Assembly: GCA_023259315.1 (NCBI GenBank)
Contig: JAHFQL010000087.1
Location: 1-5,188, forward strand
Length of the DNA stretch: 5,188 nucleotides
Origin: Candidatus Woesearchaeota archaeon
GTDB taxonomy: Archaea > Nanoarchaeota > Nanoarchaeia > Woesearchaeales > GW2011-AR4
Direction of reading: 5' to 3'
Under the pieces are notes generated by a model that was not told the DNA's origin, ran no database searches, and saw only the letters and a list, made by a program, of their open reading frames with translations. Of this stretch, positions 1-5,152 are shown piece after piece (within the stretch, counting starts at the first letter, position 1; the number at the start of each line of letters is the position of its first letter). The translations under genes were made by a program, and so were the position numbers.

Positions 1-1035
1 AGTTTTGATTGGGATTATGTAAGCTTTTGTATTTGTTTTTTGCCTTGTTTTTTGCTTTTCAATAATTGCGTCATAAATCCTGTCAACGCCAAAGCTTACT
101 CCTGCAGCTGGATAGTTTCCCTTGTCCAGGAAAGCTCCAATCATGTTGTCATATCGGCCACCGGCACAAACAGAGCTTTTAATGCTGCTGTTTTTCAAAA
201 ATGCTTCAATAACAGTGCCTGTGTAATATGCCAAGCCTCTTGCCAGAGAAACATCAAATTCAGCTTCAAAATTTAGATTTTTTAGAAAATCAAGCAATTG
301 CCCTATTTCATCTAATCCCTTTGATTCTTTTAATATATTTTTTAATTGATTAATTTTTTGCTGGTTGCTTCCGTTAATGTTTATTATGTCAATTATTTTA
401 TTGATTTTTTTATCATCAATTTTTTGCTCTTTCAATTCATTTTTCACAACATTAATTCCAAATTTTTCCAGTTTATCAATTGATAGAATAACAGACTCTT
501 GTTTGATTTTTTCAATGCCGCAATAATTCAAAACATCATTCAGCAATTTTCTGTTGTTGACTTTGATGATAACTTCAAAATTGAACTTGCAGAAGGCAAC
601 ATAAATCAATGCAATTATTTCGGCATCTGTTGCCATTGACGACGAGCCAACAACATCAACATCGCATTGGGTAAACTGCCTGTATCTTGCAGAGGCAACT
701 GGGCCATCTCGAAAAACTTCTCCAATCTGGTATCTTTTGAAAGGCATTTTTATTGTTGGGTTCATTCCAACATATCTTGCCAAAGGGACTGTTAGATCAT
801 ACCTCAATCCAAGCTCCCTGTCGCCTTGGTCTTTTAGCTTGAATGTTTCCTTCAATATTTCAGCTCCACCTGCATATTTTGAAGCAAGAACATCAAGTTT
901 CTCAATAATTGGAGTCTCTAAAGGAGCATATCCATAAATCTCAAAAACTTCCTTTAGAGTATTAACTATCTTATCCCTAACTATTATATCTTCCGGTGAA
1001 AAATCACGTGTTCCTTTTGGCAGTTGAAGGTTCAT
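1..1035 (-). CDS. hisS: Histidyl-tRNA synthetase, C-terminus cut off by the window edge
   Basis: Cytoplasmic class II aminoacyl-tRNA synthetase that charges tRNA-His with histidine using ATP. The minus-strand frame stays open from the ATG at 1035 to the left edge (345 codons). Visible landmarks: KGTRDF near residue 7, RYDLTVP at 78-84, motif 2 (FRDGP...ARYRQF, 108-121) followed by QCDVDVVG, the histidine-specific LARGLAYYTG (264-273, catalytic Arg266), GGRYDN (292-297), and motif 3 GVSFGVDRI (312-320). The C-terminal anticodon-binding domain has only just begun, so roughly 75-90 residues lie outside the window. The motif 2 region resembles eukaryote/archaeal HisRS. The usual Asp of RGLDYY is Ala269 here. 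All catalytic motifs are present, so it reads as a true HisRS and not HisZ. There is no Shine-Dalgarno, and a TATA-like box lies about 28 nt upstream, which fits a leaderless start. It follows the HisG-like gene after 36 nt. Confidence 0.96.
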   Translation of the reverse strand, partial: MNLQLPKGTRDFSPEDIIVRDKIVNTLKEVFEIYGYAPLETPIIEKLDVLASKYAGGAEILKETFKLKDQGDRELGLRYDLTVPLARYVGMNPTIKMPFKRYQIGEVFRDGPVASARYRQFTQCDVDVVGSSSMATDAEIIALIYVAFCKFNFEVIIKVNNRKLLNDVLNYCGIEKIKQESVILSIDKLEKFGINVVKNELKEQKIDDKKINKIIDIININGSNQQKINQLKNILKESKGLDEIGQLLDFLKNLNFEAEFDVSLARGLAYYTGTVIEAFLKNSSIKSSVCAGGRYDNMIGAFLDKGNYPAAGVSFGVDRIYDAIIEKQKTRQKTNTKAYIIPIKT

Positions 1036-1057
1036 ATCAAATCACATTTTTATTGTT

Positions 1058-1070
1058 GTTTAAATAATTT
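1058..1070 (-). promoter_or_regulatory. Putative TATA box of hisS
   Basis: The minus strand reads AAATTATTTAAAC here. The core TTATTTAAA is centred about 28 nt before the hisS ATG, the spacing expected for an archaeal promoter giving a leaderless mRNA. It lies just after the stop codon of the upstream gene, so hisS may be transcribed separately as well as by read-through. AT-rich background weakens the call. Confidence 0.4.
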
Positions 1071-1071
1071 A

Positions 1072-1818
1072 TCAAAGTGTTCTATCTATAACTTGTCCCA
1101 TATCAATTTCTGTTGCCATCTTTTCAAGCAAACCCGGACCGTCTGTTCTCAATGGGGAAGTTACCACTAAGTCGCTGAATCTTATTACTTCAATTATCTT
1201 TAGTCCATTTTGATCTATTGTGTCAATTGTAGTTCCGCTGTAAACTGTATCAATGCAGCAATCAGCAGCATCTCTTGCGACCCTATCTTCTAAATCACCC
1301 GAATAAATTTTCAATTCATATTTTCTACCGGTTAATAAAGGACTCTTTGAAAGGTATAACCTACCATTATACTCGTATTTGGTATTTATAGCTACCCGTG
1401 CTTCAATTGATGCATCTTTAATTTGACCTGTTCTATTTATAATTGAAAGAGCAGGTCTTCTGAATTTAGCTTCCTCATCATACCAATCATAAGTATTCTC
1501 AATCTTAAGTGTATTTTTAGGGTTTCTAAGGCGATACTCGTCAAGCAAATCATCACCAGTTACTCCTAGCACAACTCTATCATTTCTAAATTCGTCCACA
1601 ACAATTTGTGGTATGTCTTCTCCTCTTCTCAACCACAAATTAAAATCACCTAATTTCAAAGTAGTTTTATCTAATTGTTGTGCCTTGTCTAAATCAAGCC
1701 CTGCTTCCCTTAAAACTTTCCAGGCATAGCCTTTAAGGCCTGTATTTTTAGGTATGACTAATACAGCTACTCTTTCTCCTGTTGCTCCGATTACATCGTA
1801 AATATTTTCTCGATACAT
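1072..1818 (-). CDS. HisG-like protein (ATP phosphoribosyltransferase catalytic-domain homologue)
   Basis: A 248-residue protein that I match to the HisG catalytic fold. HisG condenses ATP with PRPP in the first step of histidine synthesis. Matches: GLKG...LREAGLDL (27-43; HisG has KGRL and a following AGL), LRRGEDIP (63-70; HisG VRxxDIP), LGVTGDDLLDE (84-94), GDLE (174-177; HisG GSVE/GSLE), and the PRPP-binding region with ADCCIDTVYSGTT (185-197) then NGL (204-206) and IIEVI. That loop is about three residues longer than the usual TGxTLxxNGL. No C-terminal regulatory domain is apparent, so it resembles short-form HisG, although it is longer than the usual 200-210 residues. It is the only gene here with a strong Shine-Dalgarno, and it starts 29 nt after tRNA-His and ends 36 nt before hisS, which suggests co-transcription from the tRNA promoter. 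No other his gene is visible. Family membership is fairly secure; enzymatic activity is not. Confidence 0.75.
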   Translation of the reverse strand: MYRENIYDVIGATGERVAVLVIPKNTGLKGYAWKVLREAGLDLDKAQQLDKTTLKLGDFNLWLRRGEDIPQIVVDEFRNDRVVLGVTGDDLLDEYRLRNPKNTLKIENTYDWYDEEAKFRRPALSIINRTGQIKDASIEARVAINTKYEYNGRLYLSKSPLLTGRKYELKIYSGDLEDRVARDAADCCIDTVYSGTTIDTIDQNGLKIIEVIRFSDLVVTSPLRTDGPGLLEKMATEIDMGQVIDRTL

Positions 1819-1825
1819 TTTTTAG

Positions 1826-1831
1826 CCCTCC
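1826..1831 (-). promoter_or_regulatory. Shine-Dalgarno of the HisG-like gene
   Basis: The minus strand reads GGAGGG, with 7 nt between it and the ATG at 1818. It supports that start codon and contrasts with the other protein genes, which have TATA boxes at leaderless spacing. It fits a gene translated from the inside of a transcript that begins upstream, at tRNA-His. Confidence 0.8.
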
Positions 1832-1847
1832 GTAGTTGATTAATTAG

Positions 1848-1919
1848 GGCAGCAGAGGAGAATTGAACTCCTGTCTGACGAGCCACAGTCGCCTATTCTG
1901 CCGCTGAAATACTGCTGCC
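1848..1919 (-). tRNA. tRNA-His (anticodon GTG), no intron
   Basis: The acceptor stem GCAGCAG pairs with CTGCTGC. It is extended by an encoded G-1 (position 1919) facing discriminator C73 (1848), the histidine identity pair, so G-1 need not be added after transcription. D arm: TTTC, loop AGCGGCA, GAA, with a U10-U25 mismatch. Anticodon stem GGCGA/TCGTC closes the loop CTGTGGC, giving GTG. T arm AGGAG, TTCAATT, CTCCT. CCA is not encoded (C then TAA). The 5' flank is AT-rich (1920-1960) with several TATA-like stretches, but no single clear box. The gene lies directly upstream of the HisG-like gene and then hisS, the enzyme that charges it. Confidence 0.95.
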
Positions 1920-2239: not shown

Positions 2240-2632
2240 CTAATAAGTTTCAACTTTCAATCCTTTGACTCTTGAGAAATGTTTTGCATTTTTTGTTAGA
2301 ATACTGCAGTTGTTCGAAAGGCATATCCCCGCTACCATGGCATCAGTAAGTTGAATCTCCTGTCCCGTCTTTTTTAAATGTGTAGCTATTTCTGCCGTAT
2401 TATACGCACCTGCATGGTCAAGAGGCATATTCGACATAGAGTCGAAAAACTCCTGAGCTAATATAAATTCCTTTTGAGGTATTTGTTTTTTAATTAATAT
2501 TCCATAAAGGACTTCAAGATAATTCACTTCGGTCGATACTACATTCTCTCCTTTTAATGATTCCATCTTAAGAACAGCATTTTGTTCTTGCCTGAGAAAA
2601 TCGACGATGAAATTACTATCAAGGCATATCAT
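2240..2632 (-). CDS. vapC: VapC-family toxin, PIN-domain ribonuclease
   Basis: Toxin half of a type II toxin-antitoxin pair. PIN-domain VapC proteins are Mg-dependent ribonucleases, often cutting tRNA or rRNA. The 130-residue length is typical. Expected acidic metal-binding positions are present: Asp5 in LDSNFIVDFL, Glu40 in NYLEVLYG, and Asp97 in LTDAMVAG. The C-terminal motif TKNAKHF (113-119) has His118 where many family members have Asp, with Asn115 before it; I believe this variant is common in one VapC subgroup. The ATG at 2632 immediately follows the antitoxin's TAA with no intervening base, and a weak AAGGGA lies in the end of vapB, so the two are translationally coupled. The cellular RNA target cannot be read from the sequence. 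Confidence 0.93.
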   Translation of the reverse strand: MICLDSNFIVDFLRQEQNAVLKMESLKGENVVSTEVNYLEVLYGILIKKQIPQKEFILAQEFFDSMSNMPLDHAGAYNTAEIATHLKKTGQEIQLTDAMVAGICLSNNCSILTKNAKHFSRVKGLKVETY

Positions 2633-2884
2633 TTAGATTCCCTTAACTTTCCGCGCAATGTTTTTCCACGCGTCTTTACCGAGCTTTTCTATATTCTTTT
2701 TTATTTCATCAGCTTCCTCATCACTCATGCCTTTCCATGCGCCTGCAAACTTCATAAGCTCCTCCACATTACCCTTCTTCTTATACGTCCTTAAGATTAC
2801 TTCCGAAAAGCTCTCGTCTTTTTTCTTATTGCTAGCCAAAGTTTTATACGCTTCTTCCGTTACAGTTATTGTTTTTACGGTCAT
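2633..2884 (-). CDS. vapB: VapB-type antitoxin (CopG-like, archaeal VAPB family)
   Basis: An 83-residue antitoxin expected to neutralise the downstream VapC and repress its own promoter. The N-terminus MTVKTITVTEEAYKTL is a short beta strand followed by helix, as in ribbon-helix-helix antitoxins. SFSEVILR (25-32) matches the conserved second-helix signature of this archaeal family. The C-terminal half is a charged helical tail (FAGAWKGMSDEEADEIKK, 46-63) of the kind that wraps the toxin. I chose the ATG at 2884 because a TATA box centred about 27 nt upstream puts transcription start there. In-frame ATGs at 2890 and 2908 would add a few residues, but 2908 lies at or inside the TATA box. The same frame stays open to 3115, but that extension runs through the promoter and under the opposite gene, so it is not real. 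It overlaps nothing and abuts vapC. Confidence 0.92.
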   Translation of the reverse strand: MTVKTITVTEEAYKTLASNKKKDESFSEVILRTYKKKGNVEELMKFAGAWKGMSDEEADEIKKNIEKLGKDAWKNIARKVKGI

Positions 2885-2909
2885 AAACATATGTTTATGT
2901 TTAAACATA
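2882..2909. promoter_or_regulatory. Palindromic operator of vapBC
   Basis: Two overlapping perfect palindromes: an 18-bp one (2882-2899, CATAAACATATGTTTATG) and a 14-bp one (2896-2909, TATGTTTAAACATA). Together they give four half-sites of ATGTTTA/TAAACAT. They cover the predicted transcription start, the vapB ATG and the downstream edge of its TATA box. This is where a ribbon-helix-helix antitoxin would be expected to bind and block transcription. Binding itself is inferred. Confidence 0.75.
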
Positions 2910-2921
2910 TATAAAACTTTC
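2908..2921 (-). promoter_or_regulatory. vapBC promoter (BRE and TATA box)
   Basis: The minus strand reads GAAAG then TTTTATATA: a purine-rich BRE-like element followed by a good archaeal TATA box. The TATA centre is about 27 nt before the vapB ATG at 2884, which predicts a leaderless transcript. The AT block also reads as TATA-like on the plus strand. Confidence 0.7.
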
Positions 2922-2975: not shown

Positions 2976-3797
2976 GTGGAGATATTAAGAAGGGATTTTT
3001 TGAGAGGAAGCACAGCATTGGCTTTAGGCTCGCTTTTGCTTGAGGGCAGAGTAAGTGAAGCGTTCTGCAATGTGCCAACAAATTTAAGACTTCTTCCGGA
3101 AATTTTCAAAGCCACTGTCAGGCTTTCAAGCGCAACATACCATAACGGCGCACCGGTGTCGAATGAGAGAAGTGGAACAGGTTTTATTTACAAATACGAA
3201 AATGGATATTGTTATGTTGCCACAAATCGTCACGTTGCTGTAAACGAGGAGATGGAAAGAGACATGCCTTTTGAGCACAGAACAGCTATTGCTGAATATG
3301 GTACTCCAATACCTTTAGAGCTAGTTGCCGCAGACTACAAACGCGATGTCGCTGTGCTAAGGACAAGTTATGATTTGTCAGATGTAACGTTTGAGAATTA
3401 CAGAAGTATAATCGGCAAGATAGAAGACTGCAAGCGAGGCGACGAAGTCTGCTTTGCAGGATATGGTGGAAAGGATTTTGAATTTTCCAAGGGAAGCTTG
3501 TATGAAACAGATTTTCATGATACAAGCGACGGCATGGACCATAGAGACAGCATTTTTGTTGCGCCAATTTTTCCAGGAATGAGCGGCAGTCTACTTTTTA
3601 GAATAGTCGATCAAGATATTCAATGGATTGGTATAGTTCACGCAATCAACAAAAACAAACCATTAGACCAAATGCGGCTTTCACCACATAGCTTTAAAGT
3701 TTATAGCAAGGTAAGACAAGAATGTCCAACTGGCAGGATTTTTCCAGGGTTTGCGATACAAATTTCTGATCTTGAAGATGTTTTACTTTCAGCTTAA
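2976..3797 (+). CDS. Tat-exported trypsin-like serine protease
   Basis: A 273-residue peptidase of the trypsin/HtrA fold, predicted to work outside the cytoplasmic membrane. The N-terminus carries a twin-arginine signal (RRDFL, 5-9, then hydrophobic STALALGSLLL), so it should be exported folded by the Tat system. Cleavage is probably near residue 29, but no clean AxA site is visible. Catalytic triad by motif: His86 in TNRHVA, Asp124 in RDVAVL, and Ser203 in PGMSGS, with SGTGF (66-70) forming the usual first strand. No PDZ domain follows, so it is a stand-alone protease domain. Six cysteines are scattered through it, and I assign no disulfides. The start is GTG: the frame is closed by a TGA at 2955-2957 and there is no ATG between. 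It diverges from vapBC and converges with bud32. Substrate unknown; structural or quality-control roles are both possible. Confidence 0.88.
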   Translation: MEILRRDFLRGSTALALGSLLLEGRVSEAFCNVPTNLRLLPEIFKATVRLSSATYHNGAPVSNERSGTGFIYKYENGYCYVATNRHVAVNEEMERDMPFEHRTAIAEYGTPIPLELVAADYKRDVAVLRTSYDLSDVTFENYRSIIGKIEDCKRGDEVCFAGYGGKDFEFSKGSLYETDFHDTSDGMDHRDSIFVAPIFPGMSGSLLFRIVDQDIQWIGIVHAINKNKPLDQMRLSPHSFKVYSKVRQECPTGRIFPGFAIQISDLEDVLLSA

Positions 3798-3801
3798 AAA
3801 T

Positions 3802-4410
3802 CTAACTTCCTTTCCTCGCACGATATCTTCCTCTTTTTTCGACAATTTCAAGTCTTTTCAAAGTTTCATTGCTGTTTTTTGCCTCTTTTTTATATGCATC
3901 AACAGCGCATCTAAAACATCCTTCCCAGATTTTATAATGCTTTGACTCAAGTCCTTCTTTCAGCAAGTGCAAATCAACTGCCTTGTCTTCAGCTTTTTCA
4001 GAAAAAAAACTTAATCCAAAATCAATGAAATAAATCTCTTTGTTCAAAATCATATTTGAAGTCGTCAAATCTCCGTGAATTATTGAATTGTTGTGCAATA
4101 TTGCAACTTTTTTTCCGATTTCACTGCATAATTTTTTTTGATTTAATTTTTCTAGAACATCTTTTACAAGTTTTCCATCAATCTTTTCAATTATCAAATT
4201 TTCCTTTTCATCATTTTTTATGAGTCTTGGAGCCGGAAAATTAATTGCCTGTAATTTTTGCAGTATTTTTGCTTCCCTTCTCGTCCTGAATCCTCTTAGC
4301 TTTTCATCAATTTCTTTTATCCTGTAGGATTTTTTAAAGCGATTCTTTAGGATTTTATTTTCTATTAAGAATAATTTTGCTTCTGCACCTTGAGCGATTA
4401 GTCGAGACAT
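3802..4410 (-). CDS. bud32: Bud32, KEOPS complex atypical kinase/ATPase
   Basis: Small atypical kinase (202 residues, typical for the stand-alone archaeal form) that supports Kae1 in the KEOPS complex, which makes N6-threonylcarbamoyladenosine at A37 of ANN-decoding tRNAs. Landmarks: QGAEAKLF (7-14) nucleotide loop, the basic stretch YRIKEIDEKLRGFRTRRE (29-46), catalytic loop IHGDLTTSN (111-119, Asp114 and Asn119), metal-binding IDFGLS (129-134), and the diagnostic basic tail RGRYRARKG near the C-terminus. It is not fused to Kae1, unlike in several euryarchaea, and no Kae1 gene is in view. The ATG at 4410 puts QGAEA at the expected distance from the N-terminus. There is no Shine-Dalgarno; a TATA-like box is about 24 nt upstream. 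It ends 4 nt from the convergent protease gene. Confidence 0.96.
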   Translation of the reverse strand: MSRLIAQGAEAKLFLIENKILKNRFKKSYRIKEIDEKLRGFRTRREAKILQKLQAINFPAPRLIKNDEKENLIIEKIDGKLVKDVLEKLNQKKLCSEIGKKVAILHNNSIIHGDLTTSNMILNKEIYFIDFGLSFFSEKAEDKAVDLHLLKEGLESKHYKIWEGCFRCAVDAYKKEAKNSNETLKRLEIVEKRGRYRARKGS

Positions 4411-4460: not shown

Positions 4461-4952
4461 TTAGGAATCGGTAACCCTAGTCTGGGGTATCCTTCTATGG
4501 TGGTCCATAAGTTCTTGTTTAATCACGTAATCAAGCCCACTATATTCCATAACATCTACTCCACGGTCTCTTAGATATTTTATTCCACGTCCATTAGCAG
4601 ATGGTAAACTATCAATCAACGCTACCACAACAGTATGAATGCCTCTTTCTACAATTAATTCGCAGCAAGGTTTAAAAATATGGACCCTATCATCACCAGT
4701 GCAGGGCTCTAAGGTTGTCAATAAATAGCCTCCATCTGCAAAGTTTCCGGCATTATCTAAAGCCATTCTTTCCGCGTGTATTATCAAAGAAGTATTATCC
4801 AAGAAATTTTTACTGCCCTCTCCTACTAATTCTCCGTCTTTAGACAATACTAGTGCTCCAACGTATGGTTTTCTAATATTTAGCGGTATCATCTTAGCAA
4901 GTGTTATACATCTTTCCATGTATTTTTTTATATCTGCTTCTTTTAATTCCAT
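4461..4952 (-). CDS. Stand-alone RibD-type zinc deaminase
   Basis: A 163-residue member of the cytidine deaminase superfamily. Closest by eye to the deaminase half of RibD, which acts on a pyrimidine intermediate of riboflavin synthesis. Matches: YMERCITLAK (11-20), KPYVGALVL (28-36; RibD has NPxVGxVIV), GELVGEGS (40-47), HAERMAL (59-65; zinc ligand His59 and proton-shuttle Glu61), TLEPC (80-84; zinc ligand Cys84), then KPCCELIVERGI (94-105), where Cys96 or Cys97 is the third ligand. Past this, VVVALIDSLP and NGRGIKYLRDRGVDV follow the RibD pattern. The gap between the two zinc cysteines is 11-12 residues, against 8 in RibD. The C-terminal reductase domain of full RibD is absent. Substrate uncertain: a riboflavin intermediate, a free nucleotide or an RNA base are all possible. 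Its own TATA box gives a leaderless start; bud32 follows after 50 nt. Confidence 0.82.
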   Translation of the reverse strand: MELKEADIKKYMERCITLAKMIPLNIRKPYVGALVLSKDGELVGEGSKNFLDNTSLIIHAERMALDNAGNFADGGYLLTTLEPCTGDDRVHIFKPCCELIVERGIHTVVVALIDSLPSANGRGIKYLRDRGVDVMEYSGLDYVIKQELMDHHRRIPQTRVTDS

Positions 4953-4980: not shown

Positions 4981-5046
4981 ATCAAATACCTAAATTTTAC
5001 TCACAGTTTAATAGCCCCGGGCAGATTCGAACTGCCGTCAGAGCCT

Positions 5047-5068
5047 TTCTATTGCATTTTTCGTACAA
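5047..5068 (-). other. tRNA-Gln intron 2 (anticodon loop, canonical 37/38)
   Basis: 22 nt after G37. Folding by eye: anticodon stem GGGCC/GGCTC outside, central helix CTCT with ATAG (3 of 4), bulge GG^T, intron stem TGTA with TGCA around the 7-nt loop CGAAAAA, bulge AA^A. This is a complete bulge-helix-bulge with cuts after the second base of each bulge, the substrate of archaeal tRNA splicing endonuclease. Confidence 0.88.
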
Positions 5069-5084
5069 CCAGAGGGCCCTATGC

Positions 5085-5106
5085 TACGTCTCCCTTTTTA
5101 AGGAAA
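5085..5106 (-). other. tRNA-Gln intron 1 (D arm, non-canonical site about 21/22)
   Basis: 22 nt between A21 and G22. Folding by eye: exon GGTC pairs with GACG (3 of 4), bulge AA^T, intron stem TTCC with GGGA around a 7-nt loop TTAAAAA, bulge TA^G. Cuts after the second base of each 3-nt bulge give exactly this intron. The outer exon-exon helix next to the bulges is missing, so it is a relaxed bulge-helix-bulge. Position 21/22 is unusual compared with the common 37/38 site. Confidence 0.82.
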
Positions 5107-5152
5107 TTGACCGCTACACTACGGGGCTAAAAGAAGAAGCAATGATGTTTTA

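Follow-up and report, generated by a model that had tools for sequence, protein, structure and literature searches.

Older reports are said to describe binding of histidyl-tRNA by HisG, the first enzyme of the histidine pathway. In bacteria, the rate of short-form HisG is low when HisZ, a paralogue of histidyl-tRNA synthetase (HisRS), is missing, according to the excerpted text of one study (PMC10795190), and HisZ is described as present only in bacteria in an excerpt of a review (PMC9437257). A list of seven fused his genes, again from an excerpt, excludes hisG (PMC1963479), and HisA/F-HisIE fusions are mentioned for DPANN in part of a further paper (PMC11237513). In the excerpted literature on HisG, on histidine synthesis in DPANN and Woesearchaeota and on his fusions, we found no description of an arrangement of tRNA-His, HisG and HisRS.

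The window, meaning the whole 5,188-nt stretch of Woesearchaeota DNA analysed here, carries these three genes in a row on one strand (Table 1). The HisG-like gene is separated from the tRNA by 28–29 nt, depending on the tRNA end chosen, and from the HisRS gene by 36 nt (1036–1071). ARAGORN, Rfam, Pfam and NCBIfam matches and the gaps between them agree with the triad described in an earlier reading of the letters alone (the sequence-only reading). That reading also saw no other his gene, and Pfam and NCBIfam profile searches of the window found none. Base 1919, read from the sequence, is a genome-encoded G-1 opposite C73 of the tRNA; the CCA end is not encoded. The archaeal Bud32 and the taxa of the relatives indicate a DPANN archaeon of Woesearchaeota type.

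Table 1. Features of the window with their positions and the matches or observations behind them
Feature	Position	Strand	Basis
HisRS, 345 aa visible, cut by window edge	1..1035	minus	TIGR00442
HisG-family protein, short form, 248 aa	1072..1818	minus	PF01634
tRNA-His, anticodon GTG	1847..1919, including G-1	minus	ARAGORN 1847-1918; Rfam RF00005, 54.1 bits
VapC and VapB-like antitoxin	2240..2632 and about 2633..2911 (VapB start estimated)	minus	PF01850, PF02697
Trypsin-like protease, weak Tat-signal match	2976..3797	plus	
Bud32 (KEOPS kinase)	3802..4410	minus	TIGR03724
RibD-like/dCMP-type deaminase	4461..4952	minus	
Resembles an intron-bearing tRNA gene	about 5013..5129	minus	by eye

The VapC/VapB pair sits between Bud32 and tRNA-His, and such a pair also lies 5' of HisG in L001 and L003 (L numbers denote loci and G numbers genomes). 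The protease gene is on the opposite strand inside this slot. The deaminase gene adjoins Bud32; it was considered as a member of the module and rejected, the other mapped loci containing no relative of it. At the stretch resembling a tRNA gene, ARAGORN with introns made no call and Rfam gave nothing over threshold.

The window HisG scores above the PF01634 gathering score (40.2 bits against 25.5; E = 4.2e-10) and below the cut-off of TIGR00070, the hisG equivalog (46.6 bits against 75.75). All five single-domain short HisGs of his operons that were scanned (L120, L128, L124, L125 and L016) also fall below that cut-off, at 52.2–73.7 bits, so it does not separate function here and is a source of trouble for annotation. 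The HisG match stops at about residue 226, with no C-terminal ACT-like regulatory domain; the protein consists of the catalytic core and a tail (about 226–248) at the place taken by a HisE domain in many relatives. Its predicted fold is that of the HisG catalytic core. Aligned to E. coli HisG, its PRPP-binding loop is intact (IDTVYSGTT), where we take D-x-V-x-S/T-G-x-T/S to be the loop motif. Comparison of the window gene with hisG of L002 gives a dN/dS of 0.136 (dN 0.175, dS 1.288), and motifs are preserved with few changes in the archaeal HisGs of the window clade. The predicted structure and these comparisons indicate a folded short-form ATP-phosphoribosyltransferase core, PRPP loop intact, under purifying selection. 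The assignment to the HisG family in the sequence-only reading is supported, as a short-form catalytic core.

The protein differs from the short-form HisGs that work with HisZ (1z7m, 1usy, 5m8h, 8oy0) in several respects. It is 17–19% identical to them in structural alignments, it has an insertion with an invariant Trp (the NTYDWxD region), its neighbour is a true HisRS and not HisZ, and HisD and HisB were not found in the archaeal genomes of its clade that were examined. It shares the Trp insertion and a common clade (100/100) with the short HisGs of full DPANN his operons (L117, L119, L120, L122–L125, L128), and the chromosomal slot is the same at least in L120. Those HisGs belong to complete pathways, however, whereas the window clade is a separate branch (99/95) with archaeal members lacking HisD. 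The HisG-HisE fusions of Woesearchaeota and some bacteria (P0010, L001, L009, L013) fall in the same clade as the window protein, and the HisG parts of L001, L009 and L013 are 62, 39 and 42% identical to it. The fusions have a C-terminal PF01503 domain in place of the window protein's short tail.

Wider loci were mapped using proteins of E. coli, of Eremiobacterota and of the window clade as queries. In eight genomes with a full pathway, the his genes of the operon begin with a short HisG of the same type. L120 reads Bud32, HAD, tRNA-His, HisG, HisC-HAD, HisB, HisH, HisF, HisA/I, HisD, HisRS, MetAP. The his gene order is the same in L117, L122, L124 and L128, and the slot of L117, L124 and L128 resembles that of L120 in part. 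HisD is second in L125, and HisG is fused to HisC in L119 and L123. The fused proteins (L119:5881-8199, minus strand; L123:7058-9394) are 772–778 aa long and head a full his operon; the one in L119, where this was checked, also carries a HAD phosphatase-like domain. The published list of fused his genes (PMC1963479) has no such hisG fusions. HisRS lies downstream of the operon in five of the eight genomes, 39–667 bp after HisD in L117, L120, L124 and L128 and about 1.2 kb past the last his gene in G341, and on a different contig from the operon in G066, G191 and G215. tRNA-His lies 12–190 bp before hisG in seven of the eight operons, called by ARAGORN in L119, L120 and L128 and found with an intron in L117, L122, L123 and L125 (Rfam match, GTG read by eye); none was found near hisG in L124. 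tRNA-His was counted throughout from plain ARAGORN runs and Rfam matches with GTG read by eye; ARAGORN allowing introns gave many false tRNAs.

Bud32, a landmark for the slot that holds the full his operon in relatives, is found upstream of HisG in the window, L001, L002, L004, L005, L120 and L128. The first five of these read Bud32 ... HisG, HisRS, followed by MetAP in L001, L002 and L004, where the contig extends. Because the full operons are headed by tRNA-His and HisG and often end with HisRS, the window triad would correspond to the head and tail of the same island. An assembly gap does not account for the arrangement, because one contig carries both HisG and HisRS and leaves no space between them for the missing genes.

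We counted pathway genes in the 371 genomes of the phylum of G001. The HisG-domain profile A2 matched in 31, PF01634 in 41, HisD in 15 and HisI in 33 (32 over cut-off). With G002 added, 43 genomes have HisG, 25 of the divergent short type and 18 canonical. The short group was cut at an A2 E-value of 1.3e-7 or better. Seven weaker A2 matches (2.8e-6 to 5.3e-4) were treated as canonical, where the tree also places every one of them; G299 and G371 were assigned to the short group solely on their profile scores. HisD is present in eight short-HisG genomes, each of which also carries HisB, HisI and two or more HisA/F matches (at least 100 bits). In the other 17, HisD and HisB are absent throughout (0/17 each), HisI is present in three and a single strong HisA/F in three, where absences here and below rest on genomes of unstated completeness that do not include the window's own. 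HisD is also lacking in 14 of the 18 canonical-HisG genomes, 11 of which keep HisI. Six genomes have HisI and three have HisD with no HisG match, and in G030 HisD is present and a proper HisRS was not found, as incomplete genomes would show.

The sequence-only reading had raised the question of whether relatives possess the rest of the pathway. In all seven archaeal genomes of the window clade that were examined (G001–G005, G009, G013), HisD and HisB were not found; HisI is present in two and HisE in three, and HisE was not found anywhere in G002–G005. The clade's one strong HisA/F match, in G004, belongs to a HisF and HisH pair (L150:8223-9642) beside genes that by eye resemble surface-sugar genes. 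We rejected this pair as part of a histidine pathway, its neighbours appearing by eye to be sugar-acid synthase and amidotransferase genes.

HisRS lies less than 500 bp from the short HisG, on the same strand, in 15 of the 17 HisD-lacking genomes (G001–G005, G009, G019, G075, G092, G182, G184, G299, G355, G364, G371), the exceptions being G013 and G349. The adjacency is not chance, because HisRS neighbours HisG in so many of these genomes. The sequence-only reading had asked whether it was confined to this genome; the neighbourhood recurs in DPANN genomes. Something intervenes in three of the 15: a 119-aa ORF in G001, tRNA-His in G075 and HisE in G371. HisRS is upstream of HisG in G355, and in G371 hisG is broken, near HisRS (L081, L133). 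When one genome per species was scanned, 17 loci emerged, seven from Woesearchaeota and ten bacterial, and HisRS lies downstream of HisG in six of the seven Woesearchaeota loci (L001–L005, L009, L014). tRNA-His is located at most 1.2 kb 5' of HisG in eight of the 17 HisD-lacking genomes, by ARAGORN in G002, G004, G019, G182, G184, G349 and G364 and by Rfam and eye in G299; it was not found within that distance 5' of hisG in L001, L003, L005, L009 and L014. In G075 it separates HisG from HisRS, and in G355 it precedes HisRS.

The triad is probably the head and tail of a his operon that lost its middle, with HisG retained, likely as a PRPP-using enzyme outside histidine synthesis. The head (tRNA-His and hisG) and the tail (hisRS) would derive from a DPANN operon that lost hisC, hisB, hisH, hisF, hisA/I and hisD, their adjacency would be inherited, and the HisRS would be the ordinary HisRS of the cell. 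HisG would have escaped the loss of the pathway. Most likely it still moves phosphoribose from PRPP to an adenine nucleotide, with a product of PR-ATP or PR-AMP type that may now serve something other than histidine. In relatives, fused HisE, adjacent HisI or a SLOG-family protein accompany it; with HisE and HisI not in view, the window HisG may use AMP or pass on PR-ATP, which is a guess. Some observations stand against this explanation. The lack of HisE in the window and in G002–G005 leaves no obvious outlet for PR-ATP unless the substrate is AMP, and the broken hisG of G371 indicates that decay does occur. Also against it are the loci where a nearby tRNA-His was not found (L124, and within 1.2 kb upstream L001, L003, L005, L009 and L014) and the possible histidine role of the fused gene in some bacteria. 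In the excerpted text of one study, hisG is listed among the genes gained at one Woesearchaeota node (PMC8421398), against loss.

We infer loss as the direction of change. The HisD-lacking rows do not form one clade: at least three changes of state are required, with an AU p of 0.0045 for the 15 of 17 in the tree, a test weakened by the long branches that this tree contains. If the direction is loss, the operon collapsed and kept HisG on more than one occasion, since these rows are not a single clade; the number of changes itself cannot distinguish loss from gain. The tree leaves out L149 (a fragment), three near-identical bacterial rows (L008, L010, L011) and five with no HisG ORF in the set (G299, G371, G080, G039, L017).

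The neighbour of HisG was called a HisRS and not HisZ in the sequence-only reading, and profile scores bear this out. With only 345 residues visible it still exceeds the cut-off of TIGR00442 (316.4 bits against 286.75), and it stays below that of the HisZ model TIGR00443 (189.3 against 271.65); no difference from histidyl-tRNA synthetase (HisS) was found in its visible part. The seven archaeal window-clade genomes have one strong HisRS each, beside HisG in six. Searches with the hisS model found no second HisRS-like gene above about 51 bits in these seven, nor in the eight full-pathway short-HisG genomes, which also have one HisRS each (in two pieces in G215). Two HisRS-type genes each are present in G120, G360 and G288, and in G120 and G360 one of them lies in the his neighbourhood and could be HisZ-like.

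Given that bacterial short-form HisG is slow without HisZ (PMC10795190) and that no second HisRS-like gene was found, either HisG works alone or HisRS fills the role of HisZ. The ordinary HisRS might then be the regulatory subunit of the short HisG, in a complex that senses histidine or PRPP/ATP and tunes charging of tRNA-His. The eight full-pathway genomes with their single HisRS, the reported restriction of HisZ to bacteria and the persistence of HisRS within 500 bp across HisD-lacking genomes that are not one clade all speak for such a complex. We nevertheless consider it unlikely. Operon ancestry already accounts for the pairing, G013 and G349 keep HisG with no HisRS within 500 bp, and the bacterial loci other than L016 have no HisRS in the stretch examined. 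No natural HisG-HisRS fusion turned up in a search over 326–1038 aa; the six proteins returned, of 326–362 aa, are all listed with HisG and HisE domains. The sequence-only reading went from adjacency to a histidine-sensing or charging module; this step is not supported, and the operons of the eight full-pathway genomes offer a simpler origin for the triad. A stronger form, in which the single, catalytically competent HisRS acts as HisZ in a living precursor state of the bacterial system and HisG is kept because the pair controls tRNA-His charging, is rather improbable.

The companions of HisG would favour, from gene content, an enzyme that makes a phosphoribosyl-adenine nucleotide for a non-histidine purpose. 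The commonest are the next two enzymes: HisE, fused to it (PF01503) in 36 of the 79 homologues listed among 5.8 billion proteins, and HisI, adjacent in L005 and L014. In L001 and L013 the fused HisE domain exceeds the NCBIfam cut-off. A gene of the SLOG/LDcluster4 type adjoins HisG, by overlap or end to end, in L002, L003 and L004; in L139 such a gene comes after HisI/E and in L135 after HisRS. These genes occur next to HisG or elsewhere in his neighbourhoods, and the HisGs concerned are of two types. The SLOG family includes LOG-type phosphoribohydrolases.

These companions also suggest a shunt of the upper pathway, in which HisG, HisE and HisI make ProFAR and another enzyme, for example SLOG/LDcluster4, degrades it and feeds purine or phosphoribosylamine pools. 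HisI is present in 14 of the 31 HisG-bearing, HisD-lacking genomes (3/17 with short and 11/14 with canonical HisG), and HisG, HisI/E and SLOG adjoin in L139. In Salmonella, by the excerpted account, ProFAR (HisG and HisI) is sufficient for PurF-independent formation of phosphoribosylamine in vivo, whereas ProFAR alone gave none in vitro (PMC3485032); this would be a precedent, not evidence, for these archaea. Against the shunt, HisE and HisI are not in the window and are sparse among the seven clade genomes, and action of SLOG on a substrate of this kind is a guess based on the family's LOG-type enzymes. We give it a low probability; a collapsed operon that retained HisG for a non-histidine use remains our preferred reading.

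The ten bacterial loci come from Chloroflexi, Latescibacterota, Gemmatimonadota, Poribacteria and Eremiobacterota; no relatives were found on viral contigs. In the Eremiobacterota locus L016 the HisG-like gene heads a run of his genes, and in several of the others a histidine-phosphatase-superfamily gene lies directly 3' of it. Canonical HisG and HisD are also present in all seven non-Eremiobacterota bacterial genomes with a HisG-HisE gene, which makes it an extra gene in those bacteria (L006–L008, L010–L013, L015). For G014, the PF01634 search gave canonical HisG alone; its HisG-like gene, an ORF cut short, came from the one-genome-per-species scan. The fused HisE gave the top HisE match of G008, G012 and G014, whose other matches were weaker and partial, so in some bacteria the gene may have a histidine role. 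In the tree the bacterial rows nest within the archaeal clade as sisters of the fused archaeal L009 (97/81), a position that would fit transfer from archaea.

It is very unlikely that HisG is a functionless leftover in slow decay. The broken hisG near HisRS in G371 is what such decay would look like, but the low dN/dS between the window and L002, the motifs kept in the archaeal window clade and the spread of HisG to bacteria as an extra gene argue against it. Least credible is that the window genome has a complete pathway at another locus with this protein as its ordinary HisG, a possibility raised in the sequence-only reading that holds for the eight relatives with the same type of HisG and fails for the seven archaeal genomes of the window clade, which lack HisD and HisB and whose sole strong HisA/F sits with HisH beside surface-sugar-like genes.

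With the relatives in view, an odd adjacency becomes a series, from the full operon through genomes with the upper steps only to HisG alone beside HisRS. The puzzle is why relatives without the histidine pathway keep its first enzyme. Retention of HisG in several lineages where HisD and HisB were not found suggests a non-histidine use of HisG, PR-ATP, PR-AMP or ProFAR, or a need for it connected with HisRS. Either a non-histidine use or a dependence involving HisRS, if true, would apparently be new.
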